A stretch of 64,000 bases of DNA from an uncultured Lachnospiraceae bacterium. Its GTDB lineage: Bacteria > Bacillota > Clostridia > Lachnospirales > Lachnospiraceae. The stretch covers positions 62,001-126,000 of the forward strand of contig CAMNOU010000006.1 in assembly GCA_946546945.1 (NCBI GenBank), in the 5' to 3' direction. Under the pieces are notes generated by a model, which saw nothing but the letters and a program-made list of their open reading frames with translations, was not told the origin of the DNA and did not search any database. Below are positions 9,827 to 55,550 of this stretch, piece by piece. The position numbers and the translations under genes are program-made. Numbering within the stretch: position 1 is the stretch's first letter; the number at the start of each line of letters is the position of its first letter.

Positions 9827-9947
9827 CAAGTCTCGCTCGCGAGACTTGGCGCGGAATTCGGGTCAGCGTCAGCTGACATCTTCCAAACCGAATCCCGGCG
9901 CATCCTCGCGGAGCGTTTATCCCGGTGGGGGTCTCTCACACTGAGAT
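9827..9947 (+). repeat. Structured intergenic repeat, copy 1
   Basis: Copy 1 of a five-member family. Helix H1 is CAAGTCTCGC/GCGAGACTTG (9827-9848). Helix H2 has an outer stem around ATTCGG/CCGAAT with an inner hairpin GTCAGC-GTCA-GCTGAC (9862-9877). A conserved block ATCCTCGCGGAGC follows, then helix H3 (9919-9927 with 9939-9947). It fills the ruvB-zapA gap and ends about seven bases before the zapA ribosome binding site. Confidence 0.85.
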
Positions 9948-9965
9948 GAGAAAGGAGCACGAGCT

Positions 9966-10301
9966 ATGGAACAAAAGAACAGTATACAGGTAGTCATCGG
10001 AGGAAAGATTCTGACCATGAGCGGATCTGAGGATGAGATGCATATTCAGAGAGTGGCCGCCTGTGTGAACCGAAAACTTCAGGAAATGGAAGAGACAAAT
10101 GTATACCGTTCTCTTCCGACGGATTTAAAACCGCTTCTGATCGAGTTGAATATTGCGGAGGATCTGATCGAGGCCCAGGATACGATTGCCATGCTTGAGA
10201 GCGATCTGAAGATGAAGGAGAATGAGCTGGCTGAGGTGAAGCAGCGGCTTGTCGAGACAGAGATGAAGCTGGACCGGCTGGAAGGACGTAAAAAACGATG
10301 A
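9966..10301 (+). CDS. zapA: Cell division protein ZapA
   Basis: A 111-residue ZapA-like protein that binds FtsZ and promotes Z-ring bundling. The N-terminal globular part reads KNSIQVVIGGKILTMSGSEDE and the C-terminal half is a charged coiled coil (about residues 60-108) rich in E, K and L. An AAAGGAG site lies just after repeat copy 1. The gene overlaps the following U32 family gene by four bases (ATGA), implying coupling. That pairing is common in Lachnospiraceae. Confidence 0.85.
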   Translation: MEQKNSIQVVIGGKILTMSGSEDEMHIQRVAACVNRKLQEMEETNVYRSLPTDLKPLLIELNIAEDLIEAQDTIAMLESDLKMKENELAEVKQRLVETEMKLDRLEGRKKR

Positions 10302-12553
10302 AACATGAATTACTCGCGCCGGCCGGATCTCTGGATATCTGCAAAGCGGTGATCCGTGCCGGTGCAGATGCCGTCTATCTGGGAGGAGAAAAATACGGCG
10401 CCAGGGCTTTTGCCAGGAATTTTGACGAGGCGGAAGTCCTTCAGGCTCTGGATTATGCACATTTGCGGGACCGGAAAATATTTCTGACGGTGAATACACT
10501 TTTGAAAAACCTGGAGACAGGGAAGGAATTGTATGATTATCTGAAACCTTTCTACAGGAATGGATTGGACGCCATTATCGTACAGGATTATGGCGTATTT
10601 CAATTTGCGCGAAAATACTTTCCTGAACTTCCGGTGCATATCAGCACACAGATGTCCGTTTCCGGAGTATACGGAGCGCGCTTTCTTCAGGAACAGGGCG
10701 CATCCCGTATCGTAACAGCCAGAGAACTGTCTCTGGATGAAATCAGGGCGATTTATCAGGAGACGGGAATCGAGATCGAAAGTTTCATACATGGCGCACT
10801 GTGTTACTGTTATTCCGGACAATGTCTGATGAGCAGTATGCTGGGCGGAAGGAGCGGAAACCGGGGGCGGTGCGCCCAGCCCTGCCGTCTGGCCTATGAA
10901 GTGTGTGATGCAGATGGACGAATCTATCACAAAAAAGAAAAATATCCGCTCAGCCCGAAGGATCTGTGTACCCTGGATCTGATTCCGAAACTGTGTGAAG
11001 CCGGAATCTATTCTTTCAAGATTGAAGGACGGATGAAATCTCTGGAATATGCGGCGGGAGTCACCTCTGTGTACCGGGATTATCTGGACCGTTATGAAAC
11101 GGATGCAGAACATTATCAGACGGATCCGGAGGATCTGCAGTATCTGCTCTCTTTAGGGAACCGGAACGGATTCACCCGCGGATACTATGAGATGAGAAAC
11201 GGTCCGTCCATGATCACACGGACGGAATCTTCGCACACAAGCGGACAGGCAAAGGATGTGTTTCGCGGCGTGACCGGGGAAAAACTGCCGGTCCATGCAA
11301 AAGCCGTCATTCATCAGGGGGAGCCGATGAGCCTGACGCTCTCTTATAAAACAGACCGTGTGTGTGTGACCGGTGAAGAGGTCCAGACTGCCGAGAGTCA
11401 TCCTCTGGAGGAAGCGGAGGCGCGGAAGCGGCTTTCAAAAACCGGAGAGACTTCCTGGCTGATGGCCGAACTGGAGATCGATCTTCAGGGAGCCTGTTTT
11501 GTGCCTGTGAAACATCTGAATGAGCTTCGAAGAAACGGATTTGAGGCCCTGGAACGCAAACTGCTGAAGGGGCATGAAAGGATGATCCCGGAAGCGGATC
11601 CGGAGGAATTCCATCTGTTTACAGACGGCGAGCCGTCTTCGGCAGAGGTGAAAACAAAGACGGTTCCTTCCGCTTTGTCTGCGGGGGAAGGGGAGGCGCC
11701 TTGCCTGGATGTCTTTGTCTCAACGCCGGATCAGTTAAGGGAAGTCCTCAAATATTCCTGGGTCCGCCGGATCTCTCTGGACTGCGCGTCCCGGGAGCCC
11801 AAACAGCTGCAGCAGCAAAGAGAGCAGATTCACGCTGCGGATAAGGAAGCGGCTTTTTGCTTCCCGTATGTATTCCGGGCAGATACTGCAGAAAGGTTCC
11901 GGACAGAAGCGTACAAAGAGGTGTTAAAAACGTTTGACCGGTTATGGGTCAGAAGTTATGACAGCCTCGGGTTCGCGCTCGCAGAACTGGGCGTGCGCCC
12001 GGAACAGATCGGTCTGGATTACGGTCTGTATGTATATTCTGTGCAGGCCCTGGAGGCATTTCAGATTGCGGGATTAGAGCAGTATACCGCTTCTCTGGAG
12101 CTGAACAGGAAGGAGCTCCGGCATATGCCGAACAGCAAAGCGGAGTTTATCCTGTACGGATACACGCCTCTGATGATTTCGGCACAGTGCGTATACAAAA
12201 ACTATGACCGGTGCAGAAAAGAGATGCCGGAGCAGTCCGGGAAACGCAGATCTGACCGGCCGGCACTCTATCTGAAAGACCGGTATTTTAAGCAATTCTT
12301 AATAAAAGAAAACTGTAAAGACTGTTATAATATCATCTATAACAGCCAGCCCCTGTATCTGTTTCATCAGGCAGATGTCATCCGAAAGCTGGGATTCGGA
12401 TCCGTGAGAATCGCATTGACAACGGAAAACGAATCGGAAATCAAAGGACGCCTGCAGGATTACAGGCACGTTTTTCTCGAAGGGAGAACGGTGAAAGCGC
12501 CATCTGAAAAAGACAGTTTTACGAATGGCCACTTCAACAGAGGCGTCGATTAA
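10298..12553 (+). CDS. Peptidase U32 family protein with C-terminal DUF3656-type extension
   Basis: A 751-residue U32 protein. The family signature is at residues ~160-195: IESFIHGALCYCYSGQC and RGRCAQPCR, whose cysteines probably bind an Fe-S cluster as in the RNA hydroxylases RlhA and TrhP. The first ~400 residues are the U32 TIM-barrel region; the rest is the long extension typical of the RlhA-like class. Despite the peptidase name, members with this arrangement hydroxylate 23S rRNA or tRNA bases; which applies here cannot be told from sequence alone. It overlaps zapA upstream. Confidence 0.85.
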   Translation: MKHELLAPAGSLDICKAVIRAGADAVYLGGEKYGARAFARNFDEAEVLQALDYAHLRDRKIFLTVNTLLKNLETGKELYDYLKPFYRNGLDAIIVQDYGVFQFARKYFPELPVHISTQMSVSGVYGARFLQEQGASRIVTARELSLDEIRAIYQETGIEIESFIHGALCYCYSGQCLMSSMLGGRSGNRGRCAQPCRLAYEVCDADGRIYHKKEKYPLSPKDLCTLDLIPKLCEAGIYSFKIEGRMKSLEYAAGVTSVYRDYLDRYETDAEHYQTDPEDLQYLLSLGNRNGFTRGYYEMRNGPSMITRTESSHTSGQAKDVFRGVTGEKLPVHAKAVIHQGEPMSLTLSYKTDRVCVTGEEVQTAESHPLEEAEARKRLSKTGETSWLMAELEIDLQGACFVPVKHLNELRRNGFEALERKLLKGHERMIPEADPEEFHLFTDGEPSSAEVKTKTVPSALSAGEGEAPCLDVFVSTPDQLREVLKYSWVRRISLDCASREPKQLQQQREQIHAADKEAAFCFPYVFRADTAERFRTEAYKEVLKTFDRLWVRSYDSLGFALAELGVRPEQIGLDYGLYVYSVQALEAFQIAGLEQYTASLELNRKELRHMPNSKAEFILYGYTPLMISAQCVYKNYDRCRKEMPEQSGKRRSDRPALYLKDRYFKQFLIKENCKDCYNIIYNSQPLYLFHQADVIRKLGFGSVRIALTTENESEIKGRLQDYRHVFLEGRTVKAPSEKDSFTNGHFNRGVD

Positions 12554-12566
12554 TGAGGGTTATTTC

Positions 12567-14051
12567 ATGCTGCATTTAATCACAGAATTATCGAAATATG
12601 TCATGATCATTCTGCTGGTCATTTATACCTACTACAGTTTTGCTGTGCTCGGGGTGAAGAGAGAGGACAGGCAGAAGCGCATGTACAAAAGTCAGATTAC
12701 ATGTATGCTTCTGCTGCATCTGGATGCGTTCATGGTCATCTTTGCCGTGAAACAGGAACTGAAGATCCTGATCTTTTACGGAGCCCAGATCCTGTTTATT
12801 CTCTTTTTGTACTTTATTTATAAAGTCATCTACAAAAAGGCTGCCCAGCTGGTCGTGAACCACATGGTTATGCTGATGCTGATCGGCTTTATCATACTGA
12901 CGAGGCTGGGAATCGACAGTGCGATCCGCCAGTTTGAAATCGCGGTGGCGGCGAGTGTCATCTCGATTTTCATACCGCAGCTGGTCAGGAAGTTTTATTA
13001 TCTGCGTAAGTTTACCTGGCTCTACGCGGCCATTGGTATTCTTGCGCTGGGAGCGGTCTTTGCGCTGGGACAGATCACAAAGGGAGCGCACCTGTCCTTT
13101 ACGGTGGCCGGCATCACATGGCAGCCATCGGAATTTGTCAAGATCATTTTTGTGTTTTTTGTTGCCTGCATGCTCTATCAGGCCACAGATTTCCGGCAGG
13201 TTCTGATCACGACGGCGGCGGCAGCCGTTCATGTGCTGATTCTCGTGATCTCTACAGACCTGGGCGCTGCGCTGATCTTTTTTGTGACCTATATTGTCAT
13301 GCTCTATGTGGCGACAAGGAAACCGCTCTATTTTCTGGGCGGGCTCGGGGTCGGAGCCATTGCCGCCGTGACGGCCTCAAAGCTCTTTTCCCATGTCCGG
13401 GTCCGCGTGAATGCATGGATCGACCCGTTTGCCAATATCAATGGCGGAGGCTGGCAGGTGGCGCAGTCCCTGTTCGCGCTGGGAACAGGCAGCTGGTTCG
13501 GACTGGGACTTTACCAGGGACTCCCTGAAAAAATACCGGTCGGGAAATCTGATTTTGTTTTTTCGGCGATTGCAGAGGAAATGGGGGAGATCTTCGGGAT
13601 CTGCATTATTCTGATCTGCCTCAGCTGTTTTTTGATGTTCCTGAACATTGCGATGCAGATCAGGGACCGTTTCTACAAGCTGATCGCGCTCGGACTCGGA
13701 TGTGTTTACGGCACGCAGGTCTTTTTGAACATAGGCGGCGTGATCAAATGCATCCCTTCCACGGGCGTAACGCTGCCGCTTGTCAGCTATGGCGGAAGTT
13801 CCATTTTTTGTACACTCATAATGTTTGCGATTATTCAGGGACTGTATATTTTGAAGCAGGATGAAGGAGAGCACGATGAACAGAAGGAATTTGGACGGCG
13901 AGTACGGGAAGAAAAGAACCCGTCAGGAGAATACCGTACAAAAGAGAAAAACAGACGGCCCGGGCAGCCGCAAAGGCCGCAGCCGGACGTTCCCGGAAAG
14001 AAGCGCAGATCCGGATTTGACCGGGAGGAAGACATCGAGGAAATCTGGTAG
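12567..14051 (+). CDS. FtsW/RodA/SpoVE family peptidoglycan glycosyltransferase (SEDS)
   Basis: A 494-residue polytopic SEDS protein with about ten membrane segments. Conserved SEDS features include WQPSEFVKI, the region INGGGWQVAQSLFALGTGSWFG, PVGKSDFVFSAIAEEMG and GVTLPLVSYGGSS. It polymerises glycan strands together with a class B PBP. The ATG at 12567 follows TGAGGG by seven bases. The final ~60 residues are a charged, low-complexity tail that is read out of frame with the N-terminus of the following PBP gene. Whether it serves division, elongation or sporulation cannot be decided here. Confidence 0.93.
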   Translation: MLHLITELSKYVMIILLVIYTYYSFAVLGVKREDRQKRMYKSQITCMLLLHLDAFMVIFAVKQELKILIFYGAQILFILFLYFIYKVIYKKAAQLVVNHMVMLMLIGFIILTRLGIDSAIRQFEIAVAASVISIFIPQLVRKFYYLRKFTWLYAAIGILALGAVFALGQITKGAHLSFTVAGITWQPSEFVKIIFVFFVACMLYQATDFRQVLITTAAAAVHVLILVISTDLGAALIFFVTYIVMLYVATRKPLYFLGGLGVGAIAAVTASKLFSHVRVRVNAWIDPFANINGGGWQVAQSLFALGTGSWFGLGLYQGLPEKIPVGKSDFVFSAIAEEMGEIFGICIILICLSCFLMFLNIAMQIRDRFYKLIALGLGCVYGTQVFLNIGGVIKCIPSTGVTLPLVSYGGSSIFCTLIMFAIIQGLYILKQDEGEHDEQKEFGRRVREEKNPSGEYRTKEKNRRPGQPQRPQPDVPGKKRRSGFDREEDIEEIW

Positions 14052-15447
14052 AAACCTGGAATTCCTGATTATTACGTATGTCTTTCTGGCACTGTTTCTG
14101 ATCATGATCGTTTATCTGGTCTGGTTTCAGATTTTCCGGAGCGACACTGTCATCAACAGCACTTACAATTCCAGGCTCGATCTCTATGCGGAACGGGTCG
14201 TGCGGGGAGATATCATTTCCGGAGACGGAGTCGTGCTTGCCTCTACGGATGTGCATGAGGACGGAACAGAGACCAGGTCGTATCCCTACGGAAGGATGTT
14301 CGCGCATGTTGTCGGATATTCCAATAACGGGAAGGGCGGACTGGAATCCCAGTACAATTTCCAGATGCTGCGTTCCCATTCTTTCCTTCTGACACAGATC
14401 TATAATGATCTGACGGACAGGAAAAATGCGGGAGACTCACTGGTAACGACACTGGATTATGATGTCCAGGAGGCGGCCTATCATGCGCTCGGAGACCGGG
14501 ACGGAGCAGTGGTCGTTCTGGAAGCGAAAACAGGAAAGGTGCTGGCGCTGGTCTCCAAACCGGATTTTGATCCGAACACGCTGGCCGAAAAATGGGAGTC
14601 TGTCGTCAGCGATTCCTCGAGCAGTGTCCTTCTGAACAGAGTGACACAGGGGCTTTATCCTCCGGGATCGACGTTTAAGATATTCACGACACTGGAATAT
14701 GTACATGAGAATCCTTCCTTCCGGGATTATTCGTTTCAGTGTGAGGGAGAGGTCACGGTAGAGGACAGCAGCATCCACTGTTATCACAATAATGTTCACG
14801 GACAGGAAGACCTGAAGGCATCTTTTGCCAATTCATGCAATACGTCCTACGCGACCATCGGGCTGACGCTGGATATCAGCCGGTTTCATGATCTTTTGAA
14901 GGAGATGATGTTCGGACAGACCCTGCCCGGCAATCTGTCCGCCACAAAAAGCCGCTTCACGCTTTCGGCGGAGGATGGTACGGGAAAAATCATGCAGACG
15001 GCCATCGGACAGGGAGATACGCTCGTATCCCCGCTGCATATGGCCATGGTGGCGGCAGCCATCGATAATCAGGGAGTCGTCAAGGTACCGTATCTGGTGG
15101 ATCATGTAGAAAATGACAATGGGAATACCGTGCGCAGATACCATTCCTCAGATTATAAGACCATTCTTTCGGAGTCAGATGCACAGCTGATGCGGGAATA
15201 CATGGATAGCGTCGTGGATTCCGGCACCGCCCGCAAGCTCAGCGGACAGAGTTATCATGCGGCAGGAAAGACCGGATCCGCGGAATATGACAGCAGCGGG
15301 AACAGCCACGGCTGGTTTGTCGGATACGGCTCCAAGGAAGGCTACGAGGATATTGCGATTGCGGTTATTGTTGAGGGCGGAGGATCCGGCAGTGAGTCGG
15401 CAGTACCGGTCGCGAAGTCCGTGTTTGATATTTATTTCAATCAGTAA
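13876..15447 (+). CDS. Class B penicillin-binding protein (peptidoglycan transpeptidase)
   Basis: A 523-residue transpeptidase partner of the preceding SEDS protein. A basic cytoplasmic N-terminus of ~55 residues is followed by one membrane segment (FLIITYVFLALFLIMIVYLVW), a dimerisation domain, and the penicillin-binding domain with PGSTFKI (active Ser near residue 265), SCN in FANSCNTSY and AGKTGSAE. The ATG at 13876 is chosen for its AAGGAG site seven bases upstream. This start lies 176 bases inside the ftsW-like gene, in another frame; no suitable later start exists before the membrane segment. Confidence 0.93.
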   Translation: MNRRNLDGEYGKKRTRQENTVQKRKTDGPGSRKGRSRTFPERSADPDLTGRKTSRKSGRNLEFLIITYVFLALFLIMIVYLVWFQIFRSDTVINSTYNSRLDLYAERVVRGDIISGDGVVLASTDVHEDGTETRSYPYGRMFAHVVGYSNNGKGGLESQYNFQMLRSHSFLLTQIYNDLTDRKNAGDSLVTTLDYDVQEAAYHALGDRDGAVVVLEAKTGKVLALVSKPDFDPNTLAEKWESVVSDSSSSVLLNRVTQGLYPPGSTFKIFTTLEYVHENPSFRDYSFQCEGEVTVEDSSIHCYHNNVHGQEDLKASFANSCNTSYATIGLTLDISRFHDLLKEMMFGQTLPGNLSATKSRFTLSAEDGTGKIMQTAIGQGDTLVSPLHMAMVAAAIDNQGVVKVPYLVDHVENDNGNTVRRYHSSDYKTILSESDAQLMREYMDSVVDSGTARKLSGQSYHAAGKTGSAEYDSSGNSHGWFVGYGSKEGYEDIAIAVIVEGGGSGSESAVPVAKSVFDIYFNQ

Positions 15448-15482
15448 CTTTAATATTTTCAGCGGAAGAGTCATATTTCTTC

Positions 15483-15511
15483 TTGCAAGTTCTACCTGCT
15501 TCGCTTATACT
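15483..15511 (+). promoter_or_regulatory. Predicted sigma-A promoter of the Nudix gene
   Basis: -35 TTGCAA, 17-base spacer, -10 TATACT; 37 bases before the TTG start of the Nudix gene. Confidence 0.7.
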
Positions 15512-15548
15512 AGAAATAGTTTGAAACCACATCAAGGAGGGATTGCAT

Positions 15549-16001
15549 TTGATAGAAGCAACCAGTTGTGGTGGTGTGGTTATATTCCGTGGAAAGATTT
15601 TGCTGTTATACAAGAATTATCGCAACAAGTACGAAGGATGGGTCCTGCCGAAAGGAACAGTAGAACCCGGCGAGGAGTATAAGGATACTGCCGCAAGAGA
15701 AGTAAAAGAAGAGACTGGAGTGGATGCCCAGATCATCAAATATGTCGGAAAGAGTCAGTATTCCTTTACTGTACCCGAGGATACTGTTAAAAAACAGGTC
15801 CACTGGTATCTGATGATGTCGGACAGCTACTACAGCAAACCGCAGAGGGAAGAGTTTTTTGTAGACTCCGGATATTATAAATATCACGAAGCCTACCATC
15901 TGCTGAAATTTGCAAATGAAAAGCAGATATTGGAGAAGGCATATCATGAATATCTGGATCTGAAAAGGAGCAATCTCTGGGGGAACAGTAAATATTATTA
16001 A
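15549..16001 (+). CDS. Nudix hydrolase
   Basis: A 150-residue Nudix hydrolase with a perfect Nudix box (G-x5-E-x7-REVKEETGV) within GTVEPGEEYKDTAAREVKEE, about residues 37-59, which binds the divalent metal and cleaves a nucleoside diphosphate linked to X. The compact form and ending resemble the AP4A hydrolase/MutT-like group; the substrate is not predictable. The start is probably TTG at 15549, seven bases after AAGGAGGG; a TTG six bases upstream is less well spaced. It appears to be a single-gene transcript, with its own promoter and terminator. Confidence 0.9.
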   Translation: MIEATSCGGVVIFRGKILLLYKNYRNKYEGWVLPKGTVEPGEEYKDTAAREVKEETGVDAQIIKYVGKSQYSFTVPEDTVKKQVHWYLMMSDSYYSKPQREEFFVDSGYYKYHEAYHLLKFANEKQILEKAYHEYLDLKRSNLWGNSKYY

Positions 16002-16008
16002 GGTTGAC

Positions 16009-16040
16009 GGGATTCCTCTTTTTTGAGAAATCCCTTTTTT
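16009..16040 (+). terminator. Rho-independent terminator after the Nudix gene
   Basis: Stem GGGATTCCTC / GAGAAATCCC (one mismatch) with a T-rich loop, followed by six T residues. It sits exactly where helix H3 of the intergenic repeat lies in other copies. Confidence 0.8.
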
Positions 16041-16043
16041 GTG

Positions 16044-16141
16044 ATATACGCTCCGCTAAGGATGCGCAGGGATTCGGATTGGAATTATGTCCGCTTAAGC
16101 GGACCCGAATTCCGCACCAATACTCGCAAGAGCGAGTATTG
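16044..16141 (-). repeat. Structured intergenic repeat, copy 2 (reverse orientation, no H3)
   Basis: Read on the minus strand, H1 is CAATACTCGC/GCGAGTATTG and the inner hairpin of H2 is GTCCGCTTAAGCGGAC. Both differ from copy 1 by changes on both sides of the stem, so pairing is kept. The conserved block reads ATCCTTAGCGGAGC. Helix H3 is absent and the Nudix terminator occupies its place. The H1 end lies ten bases before the ribosome binding site of the next gene. Confidence 0.8.
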
Positions 16142-16167
16142 AACAGAAAAAAGGGGGCATACTTTCT

Positions 16168-16482
16168 ATGGTTTGGTATGATCAGATGTTTCTGGGCAGG
16201 AGATGCCGCCGCAGAGCGAATCTGATAAAATATCAGATAATGAACAGAGAAAAGCATGATCTTGTCTATCTGGTCGTGCTGGCGCAGAGGGAACATGCCC
16301 TGCTGGATATTATTCCCAGTGTGTTTCTTTTGCAGGACGCCTATCCGACAGACGGGATGCACATTGTAGGAATGGGCGGTTCGAAGGAAGAGGCACTGGG
16401 GCTTGTGCAGGATATGATCAGAGAGGTGTATGAGGCAGACGGAAGCCTGGATGTTTATGCATATATGCAAAAATACAGGTAA
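16168..16482 (+). CDS. Conserved hypothetical protein (104 aa)
   Basis: I do not recognise the family. The protein begins MVWYDQMFLGRRCRRRANLI, has no membrane segment or signal peptide, and ends with an amphipathic helix-rich segment (KEEALGLVQDMIREVYEADG). The middle part (LVYLVVLAQREHALLDIIPSVFLLQ) suggests an alpha/beta fold. An AAGGGGG site lies ten bases before the ATG. It is followed after 11 bases by the DUF2953 gene and then gerW, so it probably belongs to a sporulation or envelope related operon, which is inference. Confidence 0.7.
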   Translation: MVWYDQMFLGRRCRRRANLIKYQIMNREKHDLVYLVVLAQREHALLDIIPSVFLLQDAYPTDGMHIVGMGGSKEEALGLVQDMIREVYEADGSLDVYAYMQKYR

Positions 16483-16493
16483 AGGGGTATGCT

Positions 16494-34373: not shown

Positions 34374-35636
34374 ATGGCAGAAAAAAACGACCAGACAATC
34401 ATTGAAAACCAGGAGATCCACATGGAGCAGTTCAAAAAGAAGATGCAGGAGCTCCTTGATATCGCAAGAAAAAAGAAAAATATGCTGGAGTATCAGGAAA
34501 TCAGCGATAATTTCAAGGACTTCAATCTGAATTCCGAACAGATCGAGAATGTCCTTGAGTTCCTGGAGAATAATCATGTGGATGTGCTCCGCATCGCTGA
34601 CGATGATGACATCCTGATTGAAGAGGATATTGACACCGATACGGAGGCAGACGTGGATCTGGAGAAGATCGATCTCTCTGTGCCGGACGGCGTCAGTATT
34701 GAGGATCCGGTGCGGATGTATCTGAAAGAAATCGGAAAGGTCCCGCTGCTTACTGCGGAGGAAGAGATCAATCTTGCGCAGCATATGGAGGACGGGGCGT
34801 TAGCCGCTGAAAAAATCGAAATCTTAAATGGTCGTTTGCAGGAGGCTTCCGGGGAAGAAGCGGAGGAACTCAGAGAAGAGATAAAGGAACAGCAGAAAAT
34901 CGCGGATAAAGGCGCGGAGGCAAAGAAGAGTCTGGCCGAAGCCAATCTGCGTCTTGTCGTCAGTATTGCAAAGCGCTATGTTGGAAGGGGAATGCTCTTC
35001 CTTGATCTGATCCAGGAGGGCAATCTGGGACTGATTAAAGCGGTCGAGAAATTTGATTACAGAAAAGGCTATAAGTTCAGTACGTATGCGACCTGGTGGA
35101 TCCGCCAGGCAATCACGAGAGCGATTGCCGATCAGGCCCGCACGATCCGTATTCCGGTGCATATGGTAGAGACCATCAACAAACTGATCCGTGTCTCCAG
35201 ACAGCTCCTTCAGGAGCTGGGCCGTGAGCCGCTTCCGGAAGAGATCTCAGAGGAGATGAATATGCCGGTAGACCGCGTAAGAGAGATTCTGAAAATCTCG
35301 CAGGAACCGGTATCGCTGGAAACCCCGATCGGCGAGGAGGAGGACAGCCATCTTGGTGATTTTATTCAGGACGACAATGTACCGGTGCCGGCAGATGCTG
35401 CCGCATTCACCCTGCTGAAGGAGCAGCTGGTGGAGGTACTGGGGACCCTGACCGAACGGGAGCAGAAAGTACTCCGTCTGCGTTTCGGACTGGACGACGG
35501 CCGTGCGCGCACACTGGAAGAAGTCGGTAAGGAATTCAATGTCACCAGAGAGAGAATCCGTCAGATCGAGGCGAAAGCCCTGCGGAAGCTCCGCCATCCC
35601 AGCCGCAGCCGCAAGCTGAAGGATTATCTTGACTGA
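34374..35636 (+). CDS. rpoD: RNA polymerase primary sigma factor SigA/RpoD
   Basis: A 420-residue sigma-70. Region 1.1 is short; region 1.2 has [21 protein letters not shown], regions 2.1-2.4 include [40 protein letters not shown] and [17 protein letters not shown], and region 4.2 has [17 protein letters not shown]. The promoters described in this window all fit recognition by this sigma. The ATG at 34374 follows AAAGGAAAAAG. Its TGA shares a base with the next ATG. Confidence 0.98.
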
Positions 35637-38065
35637 TGATGGAGAACAGACTGTCAAAGCGCATGGAGGCGCTGGCCCGGCTTGTTTCTGCGGGAGCGCG
35701 TCTTGCGGATATCGGGACGGATCACGGATACATACCGATCTGGCTGTGCCGGCAGGGAATCATCCCGTCCGCGATTGCAATGGATATCAACGCCGGTCCT
35801 CTGAAGACCGCAGAAGAGCATATCCGGGAGAGCGGACTGACAGACCGGATCGAAACACGGCTTTCTGACGGACTGGAAAAACTGAATGCGAAAGAAGCAG
35901 ACTCTGTCCTGATCGCAGGGATGGGCGGCGGACTGATCCGCAGGATTCTGAGGGATGGTTCCGGTTCTCTGGAGGGGATCAGAGAGCTGATCCTCCAGCC
36001 GCAGTCAGAAATTGCCCTCACACGCCGGTTCCTGCGGGAGAACGGGTGGCGGATCACTAAGGAAGATATGGTCCTGGAAGACGGGAAATATTATCCGATG
36101 ATGAAAGCGGTCCCCCGGCATGAAAAGGATCCGGATGAGGAATCCCGGACAGAGCAGGCACTGGCAGATGCCTTTGGCCCTGTCCTGCTGGCAGAAAAGC
36201 ATCCGGTACTGCTTGACTGGCTCGAACGGGAGCGTATGGTTACCGACGGCATCCTCGCACGGCTGAAAGAGGAAATCGAGAAGAGGAACCGTCAGGAAGA
36301 GACTTTCCCTGATCAGGGAATGGCCCGTCTGAGACAACGGCGGGAAGAAATGACGCAGAAAAGGAAACTGCTGGGACAGGCGCTGGAGCGAATGAGAGGA
36401 AATGAAAATATGGAAATAACACTGTCGATTTGCGGGGAAGAACGGAAATATCCGGAGAATATCACCTTTCAGGAGATCGCCCGGGAGTATCAACCCCGTT
36501 ATAAAGATGATATCGTACTGGTGCATTATCAGAACCACATCCGGGAACTGCATGCGAAACCCGGCGCCGCCGGAACGGTGGATTTTATTACGACCGCACA
36601 GAATGCGGGCAGGAGTACATACAGAAGAAGCCTGACACTGCTGATGGAAGCGGCGGCAAATGAACTGTTCACAGATAAGGCCGTGGTTGTACAGCATTCC
36701 ATCGGAAAGGGATATTATTGTGAATTCCGCCGGAACGGAAGCTTTGTGCATGTCGATCCTTCGGATATCCTGGCGCTGAAAACGAAGATGGAAGAACTTG
36801 CCGGCCGCGATCTGCCGGTCCTGAAACATGAAATGCGGACGCTGGACGCCATCCGCTATTTTGAGAAGGAAGGTCTTCCGGACAAGGCGAAACTCCTGAG
36901 ATACCGCCGGAGTTCCCGTATGAATGTGTATGAACTCAATGGATATATTGATTATTATTACGGCTATATGGTCCCCTCTACCGGCTACATCAAATACTTT
37001 GATCTGCTTCCCTATAAGAACGGCTTCATGCTGATCTTCCCGGGGAGTGACACCCGGGAGGCTGCGGCCTTCCGCCCTCTTGACAAACTGTTTCAGATCA
37101 TTGATGATTCTGCTGCCTGGGGAGAGAGCATGGGTGTACGGACCGTCGGGGAGCTGAACAATGCAATCGCAAACGGACGGATGCAGGAACTGATTCTGGT
37201 ACAGGAATCCTGGATGGAACAGAAAATCGGCGATATCGCGGAAATGATCGCACAGGATCCCAAAAAGAAAATCATCCTGATCGCCGGCCCTTCCTCTTCG
37301 GGAAAAACGACTTTTTCCCACCGCCTGAGCATTCAGCTGACGGCACAGGGGCTCAAACCGCATCCGATCGCGATGGATGACTTCTATGTGAACCGGGAAG
37401 ATACGCCGCTTGACGAGAACGGGAATTATGATTTTGAGTGTCTGGAGGCCGTGGATGTCGCCCTGTTCAATCAGTGCATGAATGATCTTCTGGAGGGAAA
37501 GGAAGTCGTTCTGCCCGTGTTTAATTTTAAGACAGGGCACCGGGAGTTCCGCCAGAGGCCTCTGAAACTGAATGCAGAAGATGTGCTTGTCATTGAAGGA
37601 ATTCACGGGCTGAATGAAAAACTTTCCAGCAGTCTTCCGAAGGAGACCAAATTCAAAATATATGTCAGTGCGCTTACGCAGCTCAATATCGACACACACA
37701 ATAATCTGGCCACAACAGACTGCAGACTGCTCCGGCGCATTGTCCGGGACGCGAGAACAAGGAATACATCGGCAAGAGAGACCCTGGCCCGTTGGGATTC
37801 CGTCCGCAGAGGAGAAGAGAAAAATATCTTTCCTTATCAGGAAGAAGCGGATGTTATGTTCAATTCAGCCTTGATTTATGAGCTGGCTGTGTTAAAATGT
37901 TATGCAGAGCCGCTTCTGTTCGCCATTGAAGAAGGGTGTCCCGAGTACGATGAGGCAAAGCGGCTGCTGAAGTTCCTTGATTATTTCATCCCGGTTCCGG
38001 GAGATGATATCGCCCTGACTTCCGTTCTGCGGGAGTTCATCGGCGGAGGAATTTTCCACATATAA
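35636..38065 (+). CDS. Fused tRNA (adenine-22-N1)-methyltransferase TrmK and uridine-kinase-like nucleoside kinase
   Basis: An uninterrupted 809-codon frame joins two proteins that are usually separate. Residues 1-~235 are TrmK, which methylates A22 of tRNA: SAM-binding LADIGTDHGYIPI near 24-34 and IAGMGGGLI near 93-101. Residues ~259-809 match the stand-alone clostridial nucleoside kinase: a TGS-like segment (ITLSICGEERKYPENITFQE), a threonyl-tRNA-synthetase-like second domain, and a uridine-kinase P-loop GPSSSGKTT near 551. An internal ATG at 36410 (codon 259) with AGAGGA nine bases upstream could also start the kinase alone. The frame begins on the last base of the rpoD stop. Confidence 0.9.
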   Translation: MMENRLSKRMEALARLVSAGARLADIGTDHGYIPIWLCRQGIIPSAIAMDINAGPLKTAEEHIRESGLTDRIETRLSDGLEKLNAKEADSVLIAGMGGGLIRRILRDGSGSLEGIRELILQPQSEIALTRRFLRENGWRITKEDMVLEDGKYYPMMKAVPRHEKDPDEESRTEQALADAFGPVLLAEKHPVLLDWLERERMVTDGILARLKEEIEKRNRQEETFPDQGMARLRQRREEMTQKRKLLGQALERMRGNENMEITLSICGEERKYPENITFQEIAREYQPRYKDDIVLVHYQNHIRELHAKPGAAGTVDFITTAQNAGRSTYRRSLTLLMEAAANELFTDKAVVVQHSIGKGYYCEFRRNGSFVHVDPSDILALKTKMEELAGRDLPVLKHEMRTLDAIRYFEKEGLPDKAKLLRYRRSSRMNVYELNGYIDYYYGYMVPSTGYIKYFDLLPYKNGFMLIFPGSDTREAAAFRPLDKLFQIIDDSAAWGESMGVRTVGELNNAIANGRMQELILVQESWMEQKIGDIAEMIAQDPKKKIILIAGPSSSGKTTFSHRLSIQLTAQGLKPHPIAMDDFYVNREDTPLDENGNYDFECLEAVDVALFNQCMNDLLEGKEVVLPVFNFKTGHREFRQRPLKLNAEDVLVIEGIHGLNEKLSSSLPKETKFKIYVSALTQLNIDTHNNLATTDCRLLRRIVRDARTRNTSARETLARWDSVRRGEEKNIFPYQEEADVMFNSALIYELAVLKCYAEPLLFAIEEGCPEYDEAKRLLKFLDYFIPVPGDDIALTSVLREFIGGGIFHI

Positions 38066-38190
38066 CTCAGAAGGGGATGTCCCCCTCCTGAGTTATATGC
38101 TCCGCGAGGATGTGCAGAGATTCGGAGAGGAAGATGACGGCTAAGGCCGTCCCGAATCTCGCACCAAGTCTCGCAGGAGCGAGACTTGAA
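38062..38190 (-). repeat. Structured intergenic repeat, copy 3 (reverse orientation)
   Basis: Read on the minus strand: H1 CAAGTCTCGC/GCGAGACTTG (38165-38188), H2 outer stem GTGC-GAGATTCGG with CCGAATCTC-T-GCAC, inner hairpin GACGGC-CTTA-GCCGTC, conserved block ATCCTCGCGGAGC, and H3 (38062-38070 with 38088-38096). Several base pairs differ from copy 5 on both strands at once. The TAA stop of the TrmK-kinase gene lies inside H3, and the H1 end abuts the first helix of RNase P RNA. Confidence 0.85.
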
Positions 38191-38537
38191 CTGAGTAAAA
38201 CAGGTGATCGCGGCTGCATGTGTCGAAAGACCGCAGGTGAGGAAAGTCCGGGCTTCACAGGGCAGGATGCCGGATAACGTCCGGCGGAGGCGACTCCAGG
38301 GAAAGTGCAACAGAAATATACCGCATGATCTGATCATGTAAGGGTGGAATGGCAGTGCAAGAGACTACCGCCCGTCCGGTAACGGACGGGGCAGCTGTAA
38401 ACCCCATTCGAAGCAAGACCGAAGCAAAGCTATGACGTGGCCCGCCAGCTTTAGGTAGGTCGCTAGAGACAGCCGGCAACGGCTGTACCAGATAGATGAT
38501 CACCCAACGACATAACCCGGCTTATCGTTTTGCTCAG
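38191..38537 (+). ncRNA. rnpB: RNase P RNA
   Basis: The catalytic RNA of RNase P, which removes 5' leaders from tRNA precursors. The conserved 5' region GAGGAAAGTCCGGGCTTCAC, the CAGGATGCCGGATAACGTCC region, AGGGAAAGTGCAACAGAAA, and the 3' conserved ACATAACCCGGCTTATCG are present in order. The ends pair as helix P1 (CTGAGTAAAAC at 38191 with GTTTTGCTCAG at 38527-38537). I see no convincing promoter directly upstream; repeat copy 3 sits flush with P1. A terminator follows at once. Confidence 0.96.
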
Positions 38538-42222: not shown

Positions 42223-42279
42223 GGGCGGTTAAAGTGTGCTATCATGCAAGAGACTGTATTTGCAGCATGAAGGATAATT

Positions 42280-42400
42280 CAAATCTCGCTCGCGAGACCT
42301 GGCGCTGGATTCGGGTCAGCGTCAGCTGACATCTTCCAAACCGAATCCATGCGCATCCTCGCGGAGCGTTTATCTCAGTGGGGGTCTCTCACACTGAGAT
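42280..42400 (+). repeat. Structured intergenic repeat, copy 4
   Basis: Nearly identical to copy 1 across its length. H1 (CAAATCTCGC with GCGAGACCTG) has two mismatches, so this copy seems to be decaying at that end. The inner hairpin GTCAGC/GCTGAC and H3 (ATCTCAGTG/CACTGAGAT) are intact. It ends about ten bases before the aroK ribosome binding site. Confidence 0.85.
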
Positions 42401-48353: not shown

Positions 48354-48382
48354 TTGAAATGCATAAAAAATTATACTATTAT
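48354..48382 (+). promoter_or_regulatory. Predicted sigma-A promoter of the leuB-ilvD-ilvB genes
   Basis: -35 TTGAAA, 17-base spacer, -10 TATTAT, 34 bases before leuB. There is no room for a T-box or peptide attenuator between promoter and gene. Confidence 0.6.
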
Positions 48383-48415
48383 GATGTAATGAGTGTAAAT
48401 GAGAGGAGTGAAATG

Positions 48416-49528: not shown

Positions 49529-49613
49529 GATATCCCCCTCTGTGATTTTAAGAATAAGCTGAAAAACAGCCGACGATAGAATTGAAAAAGAACTCAAGAA
49601 GGAGAAAATGACT

Positions 49614-51278
49614 ATGAGAAGTGACAACGCGAAAACAGGTATGCAGCAGGCACCCCACAGATCGTTATTCAACGCACTTGGAATGACCAGAGAAGAGCTT
49701 GAGAGACCGCTTGTCGGAATCGTATGTTCCTATAATGAGATCGTTCCGGGTCATATGCATCTGGATAAACTGGCGGAAGCTGCAAAACTCGGAGTTGCCA
49801 TGGCAGGCGGAACACCGGTCATGTTCCCGGCGATCGCCGTATGCGACGGTATTGCCATGGGACATGTTGGTATGAAATATTCCCTGGTGACCCGTGATCT
49901 GATTGCAGATTCTACAGAATGTATGGCGATGGCGCATCAGTTTGATGCACTCGTTATGATCCCGAACTGCGACAAGAATGTTCCGGGACTTTTGATGGCG
50001 GCAGCCAGACTGAACATCCCGACCGTTTTCGTCAGCGGCGGCCCGATGCTGGCTGGACATGTAAAAGGACAGAAGAGAAGTCTCTCTTCCATGTTCGAGG
50101 CAGTCGGCTCTTATGAGGCGGGACTGATGAGCGCAGACGATGTAGAGAATTTTGAGCGGAATGTATGCCCGACCTGCGGCTCCTGTTCCGGTATGTATAC
50201 AGCAAACTCCATGAACTGCCTGACCGAATCTCTCGGTATGGGACTTCCCGGCAACGGAACGATCCCGGCGCCGTATTCTGCAAGAATTCAGCTTGCAAAG
50301 CATGCCGGCATGGCGGTCATGGATCTTTACAGAAAGAATATCCGCCCTCTGGATATCATGACAGAGGACGCGTTCATGAATGCGCTGACCATGGATATGG
50401 CACTCGGCTGCTCTACCAACTCCATGCTTCATCTTCCGGCAATCGCCCATGAGGCAGGAATCCATATTGATCTGGACATTGCCAATGCGATGAGCGAGAA
50501 GACACCGAACCTGTGCCATCTGGCTCCGGCAGGCCCTACCTATATGGAAGATCTGAATGAGGCGGGCGGCATCAGTGCCGTTATGACAGAGCTTGACAAG
50601 CTCGGACTGCTCCACACCGACTGTATGACCGTTACCGGCAAGACGATTGCCGAGAACATCAAGGGTGCGGTCAACAGAAATCCGGAAGTCATCCGTCCGA
50701 TTGACAATCCGTACAGTAAAACAGGCGGAATCGCCGTACTGAAAGGAAATCTTGCACCGGATTCCGGTGTTGTAAAGCGCTCCGCAGTCGCACCGGAAAT
50801 GATGGTTCACGAAGGACCGGCGCGTGTATTTGACTGTGAAGAAGATGCGATCGCTGCCATCAAAGGCGGCAAAATCGTCGAGGGTGATGTAGTCGTTATC
50901 CGCTATGAGGGACCGAAGGGCGGCCCGGGAATGCGCGAGATGCTGAACCCTACCTCCGCGATTGTGGGAATGGGTCTCGGTTCTACCGTGGCGCTGATCA
51001 CAGACGGGCGGTTCTCCGGCGCGTCCAGAGGCGCGGCCATCGGACATGTTTCCCCGGAGGCGGCCGTAGGCGGCCCGATCGCGCTGGTCGAGGATGGAGA
51101 TATCATCAAGATCAATATTCCCGCCAACACGCTGGATGTGGATATCAGCGACGAAGAGATGGCAGCCAGAAAGGCAAAATGGCAGCCGAAGATGAAGGAA
51201 GTGACCGGTTATCTGAAACGTTATCAGAGCCTGGTTACATCCGGAAATACGGGAGCTATTTTAAAAATCAACGAATAG
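49614..51278 (+). CDS. ilvD: Dihydroxy-acid dehydratase
   Basis: A 554-residue Fe-S dehydratase common to valine, leucine and isoleucine synthesis. Cluster ligands lie in [13 protein letters not shown] and [36 protein letters not shown] and [20 protein letters not shown] are the other signatures. The ATG at 49614 is nine bases after AAGGAG; an ATG two codons earlier is only three bases from it. It follows leuB by 85 bases and precedes ilvB by 23. Confidence 0.97.
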
Positions 51279-51301
51279 TTTAAAATGAGGAACCAGAAGA
51301 A

Positions 51302-52987
51302 ATGCAGTTAACAGGGGCTCAAATTGTTATAGAATGTTTAAAAGAACAGGGTGTCGATACGGTGTTCGGTTATCCGGGAGGCGCCATTCTGAATGTCTAT
51401 GATGAATTATACAAACACAGCGCAGAGATCCGCCACATCCTTACCTCTCATGAGCAGGGCGCATCTCATGCGGCGGACGGATATGCGCGTTCGACAGGCA
51501 GAGTCGGCGTATGCTTTGCGACATCCGGACCCGGCGCTACAAATCTTGTGACCGGTATTGCGACGGCCTATATGGATTCCGTTCCGCTTGTTGCCATCAC
51601 CTGCAATGTGGGCGTTTCCCTTCTGGGGAAAGACAGTTTTCAGGAAGTGGATATTACCGGTATCACGACCCCGATCACAAAGCATAATTTTATTGTAAAA
51701 GATGTGGAAAACTTAGCGTCGGTCATTCGGCGCGCTTTCCGCATTGCGCAGACCGGCAGGCCCGGTCCTGTCCTGGTGGATATCCCGAAAGATGTGACCG
51801 CTGCAAAGACGGAATATGTTCCCGAACCGATTCCTCCCGTACAGCGTCTGTCTGACCGGATCACAGAGGAGGACCTGGCTGTTGCGGCAGACATGATCCG
51901 GAACTGCGAAAAGCCTTATATTTTTGTGGGCGGCGGAGCAGTCATTTCCGACGCGAACAGAGAACTGGCCGAGTTTGTTGAAAAAGTAGACGCTCCCGTG
52001 TGTGATTCCCTGATGGGAAAGGGAGCATTTGACGGAACAGACCCGCGCTATACCGGCATGCTTGGCATGCACGGCACAAAAGTATCCAATTTCGGAGTAA
52101 GCAAATGTGATCTTCTGATTGCTGTGGGCGTGCGTTTCAGTGACCGTGTCATCGGAGACGCAAACCGTTTCGCGCAGAATGCAAAGATCCTGCAGTTTGA
52201 CGTGGATCCGGCAGAGATCAATAAAAATATCCAGACGGATGCCAGCGTTACGGGAGATGTCCGCGAGATCCTGACGGCCCTGAATCAGAGGCTGCAGCCG
52301 ATGGACCATTCCGAATGGATGCGTCAGATCGCAGAAGCGAAAGAGAAATATCCGATGCGCTATTCGGAGCCGGGACTGACCGGACCGTTTATCATGGAGG
52401 AGCTCTACCGGCAGACCGGCGGCGACGCGATTATCGTCACGGAAGTCGGACAGCACCAGATGTGGGCCGCGCAGTATTTTCAATACAAACATCCGCGTAC
52501 ATTTCTGTCATCCGGCGGACTCGGAACGATGGGGTACGGACTGGGCGCCGCAATCGGCGCACAGGTAGCGAATCCCGAAAAACAGGTGATCAATATTGCC
52601 GGGGACGGCTGTTTCCGGATGAATATGAATGAGATCCTGACGGCAGTGCGGCAGAAGCTCCCGCTGATTCAGATTGTTGTGAACAACAGCGTTCTGGGCA
52701 TGGTGCATCAGTGGCAGCAGCTGTTTTATGAAAAAAGATATTCGCATACGGTCTTTCATGACGGAGCGGATTTTGTGAAGCTTGCCGAGGCCATGGGAGC
52801 TGTGGGCCTGCGTGCTTCCTCCAGGGAAGAATTCGCATCCTGCCTGAAAACGGCTCTTGCATCCGGGACGCCTGTGCTGATCGACTGTATTGTCGGCAGT
52901 AACGATAACGTGTGGCCGATGGTCGCACCGGGAGCTCCGATCAGCGAAGCATTTGATAAGCAGGATCTGGAGTCTTCCGTACATTAA
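51302..52987 (+). CDS. ilvB: Acetolactate synthase large (catalytic) subunit
   Basis: A 561-residue thiamine diphosphate enzyme. The catalytic Glu is in SHEQGASHAADGYARSTG, the FAD-binding middle domain contains PVCDSLMGKGAFDG, and the ThDP motif is GDGCFRMNMNEILTAVRQ. It makes acetolactate or acetohydroxybutyrate. No small regulatory subunit (ilvN/ilvH) follows; the next gene is serC, so the partner must be elsewhere or absent. Confidence 0.96.
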   Translation: MQLTGAQIVIECLKEQGVDTVFGYPGGAILNVYDELYKHSAEIRHILTSHEQGASHAADGYARSTGRVGVCFATSGPGATNLVTGIATAYMDSVPLVAITCNVGVSLLGKDSFQEVDITGITTPITKHNFIVKDVENLASVIRRAFRIAQTGRPGPVLVDIPKDVTAAKTEYVPEPIPPVQRLSDRITEEDLAVAADMIRNCEKPYIFVGGGAVISDANRELAEFVEKVDAPVCDSLMGKGAFDGTDPRYTGMLGMHGTKVSNFGVSKCDLLIAVGVRFSDRVIGDANRFAQNAKILQFDVDPAEINKNIQTDASVTGDVREILTALNQRLQPMDHSEWMRQIAEAKEKYPMRYSEPGLTGPFIMEELYRQTGGDAIIVTEVGQHQMWAAQYFQYKHPRTFLSSGGLGTMGYGLGAAIGAQVANPEKQVINIAGDGCFRMNMNEILTAVRQKLPLIQIVVNNSVLGMVHQWQQLFYEKRYSHTVFHDGADFVKLAEAMGAVGLRASSREEFASCLKTALASGTPVLIDCIVGSNDNVWPMVAPGAPISEAFDKQDLESSVH

Positions 52988-53008
52988 TCTTGTATATACA
53001 GTCTGTTT

Positions 53009-53083
53009 CCTCCTGCGCATCAGCGGGAGGGGGCGGAATGTATTTTATAAATTTCAAAGACCGGCATTATGTGTGGATGCCGG
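53009..53083 (+). promoter_or_regulatory. Two hairpins in the ilvB-serC gap
   Basis: The first is CCTCCTGC/GCGGGAGG (53009-53030) without a following T-run, so it is not a classical terminator. The second is CCGGCAT/ATGCCGG (53061-53083) with a nine-base loop and ends seven bases before the serC AGGAGG site. They may influence serC expression. Confidence 0.4.
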
Positions 53084-53101
53084 ACGATTAGGAGGGTAAA
53101 A

Positions 53102-54184
53102 ATGAGCAGAGTTTATAATTTCTCAGCCGGACCGGCCGTGCTGCCGGTAGAAGTGCTCAAAGAAGCACAGGAAGAGATGCTGGACTACCGCGGATGCGGC
53201 ATGTCTGTGATGGAGATGAGTCATCGCTCTTCCATGTTCCAGGAGATCATCGATGAGGCGGAGGCAGACCTTCGTGAACTGATGGGAATCCCGGATAATT
53301 ACAAAGTATTATTCTTACAGGGGGGCGCGTCCCTTCATTTCGCGACGATCCCCATGAACCTGATGAAAAACGGCGTAGCCGATTATATCATTACCGGTCA
53401 GTGGGCAAAGAAAGCATGGCAGGAAGCATGCAAATACGGAAAGGCAAACAAGATTGCTTCTTCCGAAGACAAGACATTTTCCTATATTCCGGATTGTTCA
53501 GATCTGCCGGTTTCCGAGGACGCAGACTATGTTTATATCTGCCAGAACAATACCATTTACGGTACCGAATATCATACACTGCCCAATACAAAGGGCAAGA
53601 TCCTGGTCGCTGATGTTTCTTCTGATTTCCTTTCCGGCCCAATCGATGTTGAAAAATACGGCGTGATCTACGGCGGCGTTCAGAAGAATATCGGACCTTC
53701 CGGCGTACAGATCATCATTATCCGTGAGGATCTTCTGCGCGATGATCTTCCGGAGTATGTTCCGACCATGATGAATCTCAAACTGATGGCAGAAAAGAAA
53801 TCTCTGTACAATACACCGCCGTGCTATGGTATTTATATCTGCGGCAAGGTCTTCAAATGGATCAAGAACCTGGGCGGACTTGAGGCGATGAAGGCGCGCA
53901 ATGAAAAGAAAGCTGCTATCCTGTATGACTTCCTTGACAACAGCAAGCTGTTTAAGGGAACCGTAAGAAAGGAAGACCGCTCTCTGATGAACGTTCCGTT
54001 CGTGATCGGAGACAAGGATATGGAAGCAAAATTTGTCAAAGAGGCAAAGGAAGCCGGACTGGAGAATCTGAAGGGTCACAGAACCGTCGGCGGTATGCGC
54101 GCATCCATCTACAATGCGATGCCGATGGAAGGCGTTGAGGCACTGGTTGCCTTTATGAAGAAATTTGAAGAAGAAAACGCTTAA
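53102..54184 (+). CDS. serC: Phosphoserine aminotransferase
   Basis: A 360-residue class V PLP aminotransferase that converts 3-phosphohydroxypyruvate to phosphoserine. It opens with VYNFSAGPAVLPVEVLKEAQ; the PLP lysine is in YGGVQKNIGPSGV, and the C-terminal HRTVGGMRASIYNAMP is diagnostic. The ATG follows TAGGAGGG. serA follows after 23 bases. Confidence 0.96.
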   Translation: MSRVYNFSAGPAVLPVEVLKEAQEEMLDYRGCGMSVMEMSHRSSMFQEIIDEAEADLRELMGIPDNYKVLFLQGGASLHFATIPMNLMKNGVADYIITGQWAKKAWQEACKYGKANKIASSEDKTFSYIPDCSDLPVSEDADYVYICQNNTIYGTEYHTLPNTKGKILVADVSSDFLSGPIDVEKYGVIYGGVQKNIGPSGVQIIIIREDLLRDDLPEYVPTMMNLKLMAEKKSLYNTPPCYGIYICGKVFKWIKNLGGLEAMKARNEKKAAILYDFLDNSKLFKGTVRKEDRSLMNVPFVIGDKDMEAKFVKEAKEAGLENLKGHRTVGGMRASIYNAMPMEGVEALVAFMKKFEEENA

Positions 54185-54207
54185 TCAGGAAAAGAGGTCA
54201 GATAATA

Positions 54208-55368
54208 ATGAAGTATACATGCTTAAATCCGATTGCCGCGTGCGGCCTGGAGCTGTTCCCGGATAGATATGAAAAAACAGACGATTTCGCGGATGCCGAC
54301 GTTGCCCTTGTACGCAGCGCCGCCATGCATGAGATGGAGCTTCCGGAAGGATTGCTGGCAATCGCGCGGGCAGGCGCGGGCGTCAACAATATTCCGCTTG
54401 AAAAATGTGCGCAGAAGGGAATCGTTGTATTCAATACGCCCGGTGCAAACGCAAACGGCGTAAAAGAGCTTGTCCTTGCCGGCATGCTTCTGGCAAGCCG
54501 CGACATCACGGGCGGAATCAGCTGGGTCAGCGAAAATAAGGACGACGAGGGAATTGCGAAGGCGGCAGAAAAAGCAAAGAAGGCTTTTGCAGGAACAGAG
54601 ATCAAGGGGAAAACACTCGGGGTCATCGGCCTTGGCGCAATCGGTGTCCTGGTGGCCAATGCAGCGGTTTCTCTGGGAATGAATGTTCTCGGATTTGATC
54701 CGTATCTGTCTGTCAATTCCGCATGGAATGTTTCTACGAAAGTAAAACATGTGCTGTCGGTAGAGGAAATTTACAGTGCGTGTGATTTTATCACAATCCA
54801 TGTACCGCTTCTCGAATCCACAAAAGGAATGATCAGCAAAGAAGCGATCGCTTCCATGAAGGATGGCGTCATTGTCCTGAACTTTGCCCGCGACACTCTG
54901 GTAGATGAAGCGGCCATGGTCGAGGCACTTGAGGCAGGCAAGGTCCGCAAATATGTTGTTGACTTCCCGAATTCGACAACTGCTGGCGCAAAGAACTGTA
55001 TTGTGATCCCGCATCTGGGAGCGTCCACGGAAGAGTCCGAAGACAACTGTGCCGTTATGGCGGTCAATGAACTGATCGACTATGTTGAAAACGGAAATAT
55101 TGCGCACTCTGTCAATTATCCTGACTGCAGCATGGGTGTCTGCACGGCAGTGAGCCGTATTGCACTCGTTCACAAAAACGTGAAAAACACGATCAGTCAG
55201 TATACGTCCGTTCTGGGCGACGCAGGAATCAATATTTCTGATATGACCAACAAGAGCAGAGGCGACTATGCTTACTCTCTGATCGATCTGGATACTCCGG
55301 CGACAGCGGAACTGGTTGAAAAACTTTCCGCGATCGATGGGATGCTGAAAGTGCGTATCGTGAAATAA
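54208..55368 (+). CDS. serA: D-3-phosphoglycerate dehydrogenase
   Basis: A 386-residue enzyme catalysing the first step of serine synthesis. The NAD-binding loop is GLGAIGVLVANAAVSLG, catalytic Arg/His regions are NIPLEKCAQKG with NFARD and PHLGASTEESEDNC, and a C-terminal ACT domain (VLGDAGINISDMTNKSRGDYAYSLIDLD) suggests serine feedback control. serC and DUF1015 genes flank it. Confidence 0.95.
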   Translation: MKYTCLNPIAACGLELFPDRYEKTDDFADADVALVRSAAMHEMELPEGLLAIARAGAGVNNIPLEKCAQKGIVVFNTPGANANGVKELVLAGMLLASRDITGGISWVSENKDDEGIAKAAEKAKKAFAGTEIKGKTLGVIGLGAIGVLVANAAVSLGMNVLGFDPYLSVNSAWNVSTKVKHVLSVEEIYSACDFITIHVPLLESTKGMISKEAIASMKDGVIVLNFARDTLVDEAAMVEALEAGKVRKYVVDFPNSTTAGAKNCIVIPHLGASTEESEDNCAVMAVNELIDYVENGNIAHSVNYPDCSMGVCTAVSRIALVHKNVKNTISQYTSVLGDAGINISDMTNKSRGDYAYSLIDLDTPATAELVEKLSAIDGMLKVRIVK

Positions 55369-55380
55369 CATGCTGTCAGA

Positions 55381-55427
55381 AAGAGTGTGTCAGGAACCGT
55401 AAAATGGTCTGCGGCACACTCTTTTTT
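55381..55427 (+). terminator. Rho-independent terminator after serA
   Basis: An 11-bp stem AAGAGTGTGTC / GGCACACTCTT with a large loop, followed by six T residues. Repeat copy 5 starts at once. Confidence 0.8.
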
Positions 55428-55550
55428 ATCTCAGTGTGAGAAGACCCCCCACTGAGATAAACGCTCCGCGAGGATGCGCAGGAATTCGGTTTGGAAGATG
55501 TCAGCTGACGCTGACCCGAATTCCGCGCCAAGTCTCGCGAGCGAGACTTG
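55428..55550 (-). repeat. Structured intergenic repeat, copy 5 (reverse orientation)
   Basis: The best-formed copy. On the minus strand: H1 CAAGTCTCGC-TC-GCGAGACTTG, outer H2 stem GCGCGGAATTCGG with CCGAATTCC-T-GCGC (13 pairs, one bulged T), inner hairpin GTCAGC-GTCA-GCTGAC, block ATCCTCGCGGAGC, and H3 ATCTCAGTG/CACTGAGAT. It lies between the serA terminator and the DUF1015 ribosome binding site. Confidence 0.87.

Follow-up and report, generated by a model that had tools for sequence, protein, structure and literature searches.

Short gene-free repeats of Lachnospiraceae as probable single-strand transposable elements with putative DNA guides to their targets

Palindrome-associated transposable elements (PATEs) are known from Haloquadratum (PMC3119063), and in the transposon IS608 the left end pairs with the target in the register A+16:T-3 and A+17:T-4 (PMC5934647), the same register as that of the left-end guide described below. 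The repeats analyzed here, five copies of which lie in the window (the whole 64-kb stretch of Lachnospiraceae DNA under analysis), fit the published definition of PATEs as given in the text of PMC3119063 compared. They are, with good probability, non-autonomous elements of the IS200/IS605 kind, comparable to PATEs and moved as single strands by an HUH Y1 transposase. The literature searched yielded no description of the family; thousands of microbiome RNA candidates were reported in PMC8040213, and the supplement to that paper may contain it.

Read with hairpin H1 first (strand A; the complement, strand B, reads H3 first), the five copies are found where the sequence-only reading had placed them, on the plus strand at 9827 and 42280 and on the minus strand at 16044, 38062 and 55428, and the stems it quoted are present in the sequence. 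The architecture it took to be common to all is whole in four copies, the copy at 16044 being without H3. On strand B the order is target, H3 or a long left end, core, H2 and H1, and the limits given here for the window copies exclude the target. Copy 1, a short form of 121 nt recognized by sequence and covariance-model match (9825..9945, plus strand), lies between ruvB and zapA (neighbors assigned by Pfam) next to the target CTCAT (strand B, 9946-9950); the fold places its right-end hairpin H1 at 9827..9848 (plus strand), with covariation at 10/10 pairs. Copy 2 (about 16042..16143, minus strand; sequence and model match) has lost H3 and the left end and adjoins a hairpin followed by six T. 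Copy 3 (125 nt, 38066..38190, minus strand; sequence, ORF list and Rfam) has the stop codon of ORF 35636-38065 directly before it and RNase P RNA (Rfam) 2 nt beyond it, and therefore may separate rnpB from its promoter. Its inner foot TTATATG is complementary to the flank CATATAA at 7/7 positions, and its target includes the stop codon TAA of the same ORF (window 38060-38192). Copy 4, a short form of 121 nt (42278..42398, plus strand; model match, flanks and Pfam), is located upstream of a shikimate kinase gene (Pfam), also with the target CTCAT. In copy 5, a short form of 123 nt (55430..55552, minus strand; sequence and Pfam), the target TTTAT lies outside the element at 55425..55429 (plus strand), pairs with the inner foot ATAAA and lies in the T-run belonging to a terminator-like hairpin; a DUF1015 gene (Pfam) follows.

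Noticed as five copies, the family extends through the genome and to its relatives. Well above chance expectation, the 2.77 Mb draft genome of the window gave 75 matches to a covariance model of the five (E<=0.01; 150 of 590 first-look candidates were scored), and blastn gave 50 matches at E<=0.01. With the threshold at E<=0.001 the model matched 25 of 61 genomes, all from one bacterial family: the window's own, 16 of the 19 other species from its genus and 8 of the 17 further genomes from the family. It matched none of 24 genomes from other families of the order. A 22-base core pattern occurs in at least 120 stretches of GTDB genomes; among the matches listed, most titles name Lachnospiraceae, Butyrivibrio, Lachnospira, Eubacterium, Agathobacter and similar taxa, and some only Clostridiales or Sarcina. 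Lachnospira multipara, the one name looked up, belongs to the Lachnospiraceae. Elements of the type seen in genome G030 are nearly identical over long stretches in several named genera (loci L217, L219, L241, L242, L245 and others), a similarity that suggests transfer between genera. Carriage by phages was considered and rejected, the core pattern occurring in one of 2.9 million viral contigs and two long-form patterns in none.

The paired changes seen to preserve the fold in the window recur across the family. In a 91-row alignment (88 distinct rows), which is fitted to the model and leans towards structure, 43 of 46 pairs are changed on both sides. Its rows are matches from 88 chosen sources (87 loci and the window), many of them picked by the core pattern, and 59 of the 91 stay less than 85% identical to each other. 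Over the 91 rows 95.3% of cells pair, compared with 69.0% when partners are shuffled and 32-50% when they are slid. The conserved core (GCATCCTCGCGGAGCG in copy 1, 9900..9915, plus strand) shows its main base in 19-22 of 22 rows per column, except at two degenerate columns, in rows found by the model alone, which itself contains the core, so that the search also selects for it; neighboring H2 columns vary. Of the proposed compensation in H3, the paired changes are present, and part of it is guide-target pairing, since the inner guide is complementary to the target flank. G.T wobbles outnumber A.C across species (GT 84, AC 28; 59 rows) and among single changes within genomes (GT 42, AC 27). By helix, the bias points to strand B for H1 and to strand A for H2, in both cases on single pairs. 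As an indicator of the folded strand the wobble was set aside: a model built on the other strand turns the H3 lean around, and in counts by cluster the signals of H1 and H2 are dominated by a single pair. Strong covariation in intergenic repeats of bacteria may have its source in the transposition of folded DNA, and to some extent in the choice of target, instead of in a functional RNA.

The elements are 121-190 nt long, too short for a transposase, and carry neither tnpA nor tnpB. The two ends read CTCAG and CTTGAA and do not form inverted repeats, and the hairpins H3 and H1 lie near them. A 25-codon open frame seen by eye in one copy was discarded, as it is not kept in other copies. Long forms, about 54 nt longer (175 versus 121 nt in G000), occur in many copies in genomes G000, G003, G009, G029 and G030 and contain a second hairpin, for example CCCCCACTTCTTAAGTGGCGGG, inside H3. 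The sequence of the short form suggests a deletion between GTGGG repeats, and short forms would be elements that lost an inner part of the long left end and continue to spread; some fragments retain the ends only. The later tabulations of copies use a core-anchored pattern, an early loose pattern having given 64 rows that included chance matches. A diverged subfamily with a TTTCCTATGATA-type H3 (L082 and L064; G000 C1, about 163.6 kb) shares its genome with the main type, and similar elements found in other genera have A-runs at their ends, followed by terminator-like hairpins. At L177 (G019 C56) a main-type body is joined to a different H3 of TTTTTTGTTTGCAA type, suggesting an exchange of left ends. 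Two further copies (L098 and L099; G000 C5, about 92.2 kb, and C19, about 44.5 kb) have an extra ~50-65 nt at the same place between H1 and H2.

The elements are mobile: they insert next to a short, AT-rich target already present and do not duplicate it. The proposal of a mobile element is borne out by copy number, by empty sites, by insertion into Y1 tnpA genes and by tandem re-insertion. Empty sites were sought by joined flanks at 30 sites and comparators crossing the junction were read for 11, weaker matches being fetched only in part; the comparator fetched for L168 does not cross the junction. Twelve sites have an element-free comparator across the junction, nine of them readable and three unreadable (L014, L163, L200). 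The cleanest is an IS605 of G068 that contains the element, compared with its counterpart in G019 that does not (L207): a 123-nt insertion separates them, 159 of 160 flank bases are identical with none gained or lost, and the target TTATAT pre-exists. At L415 and L417 (G068 C67 and C65), which are two copies of one IS605, the element sits at the tnpA 3' end as though it travelled with the transposon. Target duplication is likewise absent at eight more sites (L165, L164, L170, L116, L166, L169, L161, L198), where the junction with the best comparator is clean, give or take one base (n=8 comparators each for L164 and L198; one of two clean for L169; a weak comparator of only 71% identity for L170). 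The last two target bases of the comparators are AT at seven of these eight sites, L161 being the exception, and at the G019 site. At target position -3 comparator and occupied site differ at L165 and L164 (G versus C), at L166 (C versus T) and at L198 (C in 6/8 comparators versus T), and the L161 comparator differs at -2. Either the sites with -3 mismatches have diverged or insertion shifts that base towards the guide.

Open frames are avoided as landing places: 15 of 92 copies lie in one, compared with 284 among 445 positions drawn at random. A Y1 tnpA gene of G000 is interrupted by a copy within the HIHL motif, and judged from that motif TTCAT would lie in the gene. In six pairs the copies are within 330 nt of each other. 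Four of these pairs adjoin head to tail (L120, L291, L304, L306), two of them with a partial upstream copy and three without an A-run target between the copies, and the close pairs L193 and L242 have spacers. At L178 re-insertion has occurred at an existing left end. A strong hairpin lies just upstream of 19 of the 92 copies, compared with 7 downstream and 5 and 7 far away; the preference for terminators is only suggestive, because mean energies upstream and far away are alike (p 0.34). The flanks of L198 and L164 belong to two further dispersed repeats, unrelated to this family and present many times in G009, G012 and G019, here serving as landing sites. At the L171 site (G012 C271:15391-15614) about 80 extra bases stand between matching flanks, perhaps another insertion.

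The main type on strand B begins CTCAG and is directly preceded by TTTAT, TTCAT or TTTAA. Statistically, the inner foot of H3 is complementary to the target, and a guide in the left end covaries with target position -3, so far as can be judged from aligned copies. With the H3 stem located in 222 elements without looking at the flank, the five bases of the inner foot are the full complement of the five target bases in 145 and match at four of five in 37. The mean match is 4.32, compared with 3.07 and 0.6% full matches in a control that set each flank against the differing inner foot of another element. Inner foot ATAAA goes with TTTAT in 58/97 copies and with TTCAT in 16, TTAAA with TTTAA in 36/42, TAAAA with TTTTA in 8/9 and ATATA with TATAT in 4/5; AAAAA goes with TTTTT in 36/47, these 47 A-only feet being of low complexity. 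Rare inner feet fit worse, with exact matches in 0/3 for AAAAG, 1/3 for ACAAA, 0/2 for AAATG and 1/2 for CAAAA. Since the five bases are complementary to the target, the guide-target duplex would continue the H3 stem.

The second guide precedes the C-run of an IS605-like left-end hairpin, was readable in 76 of 136 rows and fits target -3 in 69 of the 76 (target:guide T:A 49, C:G 20, T:G 6, A:A 1, C:A 0). Because copies are related, the p-values of this test overstate independence, and the coexistence of guide types in one genome is the better argument. Both left-end guide types occur together in G000 (19/21 fit) and in G009 (13/14 fit), and in G003 two inner feet coexist, with exact matches in 9/10 copies. 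Natural genomes thus show how a tiny gene-free hairpin element of gut bacteria appears to pick its target. Many natural guide-target pairs are available (TTTAT, TTTAA, TTTTT, TTTTA, TATAT), and the target-choice rule of a single-strand transposon can therefore be read from genomes and tested.

The putative link to the ends of IS605 lies in the left end. The left end of the IS605 at L386, just before tnpA, scores 38 when aligned with the G009 long form, where 300 shuffles reached 24 at best, and 31 when aligned with the long form of G030, where they reached 20; if the end is placed there, it follows TTTAA as in G030. Eight of 18 left-end comparisons with IS605 beat all shuffles and ten did not. 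As a right end, H1 is unlike the IS605 right ends seen; no core-H2-H1 right end was found among 41 tnpA loci, and the single locus with a core near tnpA (1/41) is an insertion into tnpA itself. Y1 tnpA is present at E<=1e-20 in 89 of 250 genomes of the family, and 6 of 14 tnpA-bearing genomes tested also contain the element. In genomes G003, G006 and G030, which have 35, 23 and 29 model matches, respectively, no Y1_Tnp was detected at E<=1e-3. The sequence-only reading had advised looking for a transposase associated with the repeat; tblastn with three TnpA and three TnpB queries found neither gene in or beside the elements at L113-L200 and L214-L333, and none sharing the right end was found. 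Y1 genes of ten mostly high-copy genomes were considered as partners and set aside, the complete ones read having other ends. A Y1 TnpA acting in trans would bind the folded ends on single-stranded DNA and excise the element, and reinsertion would follow at a target chosen by the guide. We entertain, with considerable reserve, a broader and doubtful possibility, that these are family-wide DNA-guided elements in which ends and five-base guides are exchanged around a working core and bulged stem (an RNA or folded-DNA scaffold), each exchange retargeting the element, and whose enzyme need not be the host IS605 TnpA.

Three other explanations bear on the same evidence. The repeats might be a structured RNA with a regulatory or guide role, dispersed by transposition of some kind, with the fold kept for the RNA. 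The covariation of H2 speaks for it, together with a near-invariant core shared by elements that otherwise differ, as does the H2 wobble, which leans under models of either strand to strand A, opposite the putative active strand; most of this lean comes from one pair, and with the strand-B model it does not reach significance when counted by cluster. Nor do Rfam scans of the window and of one copy match the element. At gathering scores the window contained RNase P RNA only, and a scan of the 55.4 kb copy by itself brought four matches at chance level, well under their gathering scores, in keeping with the earlier impression that this is not a named family. An omega-RNA origin of the core, prompted by GCGAGGAT after three tnpB genes, was rejected: in the regions after 17 tnpB genes, where omega RNA sites lie, 0/51 alignments beat shuffles and one tied. 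We consider the RNA explanation unlikely.

Short, gene-free and present in many near-identical copies, the repeats also resemble a classical MITE, the kind of element that a DDE transposase mobilizes by recognizing terminal inverted repeats. This reading is disfavored, and very improbable, given ends that are not inverted repeats, nine readable empty sites without target duplication and a target chosen by complementarity. The many intergenic palindromes, for which an HUH enzyme is plausible, would equally suit REP sequences proper, served by a domesticated TnpA-REP. REPs are stated in PMC6006769 to be 21-65 nt, compared with 121-190 nt here; the GT[AG]G-type tetranucleotide placed 5' of the hairpin in that definition was absent from the copies read, whose hairpin feet have no GTAG-type motif, and no tnpA was found by tblastn beside the copies in L113-L200 and L214-L333. 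We give this identity almost no credence. The IS200-type link of the REP/MITE-like element proposed from sequence is retained, the IS200/IS605 kind being the best fit, and both REP proper and classical MITE are dropped from that description.

In the preferred reading, as non-autonomous elements of the IS200/IS605 kind, the repeats can be compared with three described groups. With REPs and their TnpA-REP they share many-copy intergenic palindromes linked to Y1 HUH enzymes (PMC8266576, PMC6006769), differing in their greater length, in having no GTAG-type tetranucleotide and in having no tnpA beside the copies examined. Like PATEs they are too short for a transposase, have no terminal inverted repeats and make no target duplication, and some hosts have no intact Y1 gene (PMC3119063). 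Palindromes near the ends of PATEs are related to IS605-type transposons, a relation seen here at the left end in 8/18 comparisons, with no match found for the right end. Unlike what is reported in the text of PMC3119063 compared, the repeats have a conserved core and the H2 stem between their ends, and their target complements the inner foot of the left hairpin, with several guide types. It is because of this inner-foot guide and the conserved interior (core and H2) that the elements are set apart within the palindrome-associated kind. With IS608 and the IS200/IS605 family they share insertion 3' of a short retained target, end hairpins, and guide bases by the left-end hairpin that pair with target -3 and -4 (PMC5934647, PMC6006769), whereas the elements here contain no genes and the right-end hairpin H1 reaches the cleavage point. 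Finally, the five-base guide lies here at the 3' foot of the hairpin, where pairing occurs naturally, whereas in IS608, in the sources compared, pairing at that place is an addition made by design.
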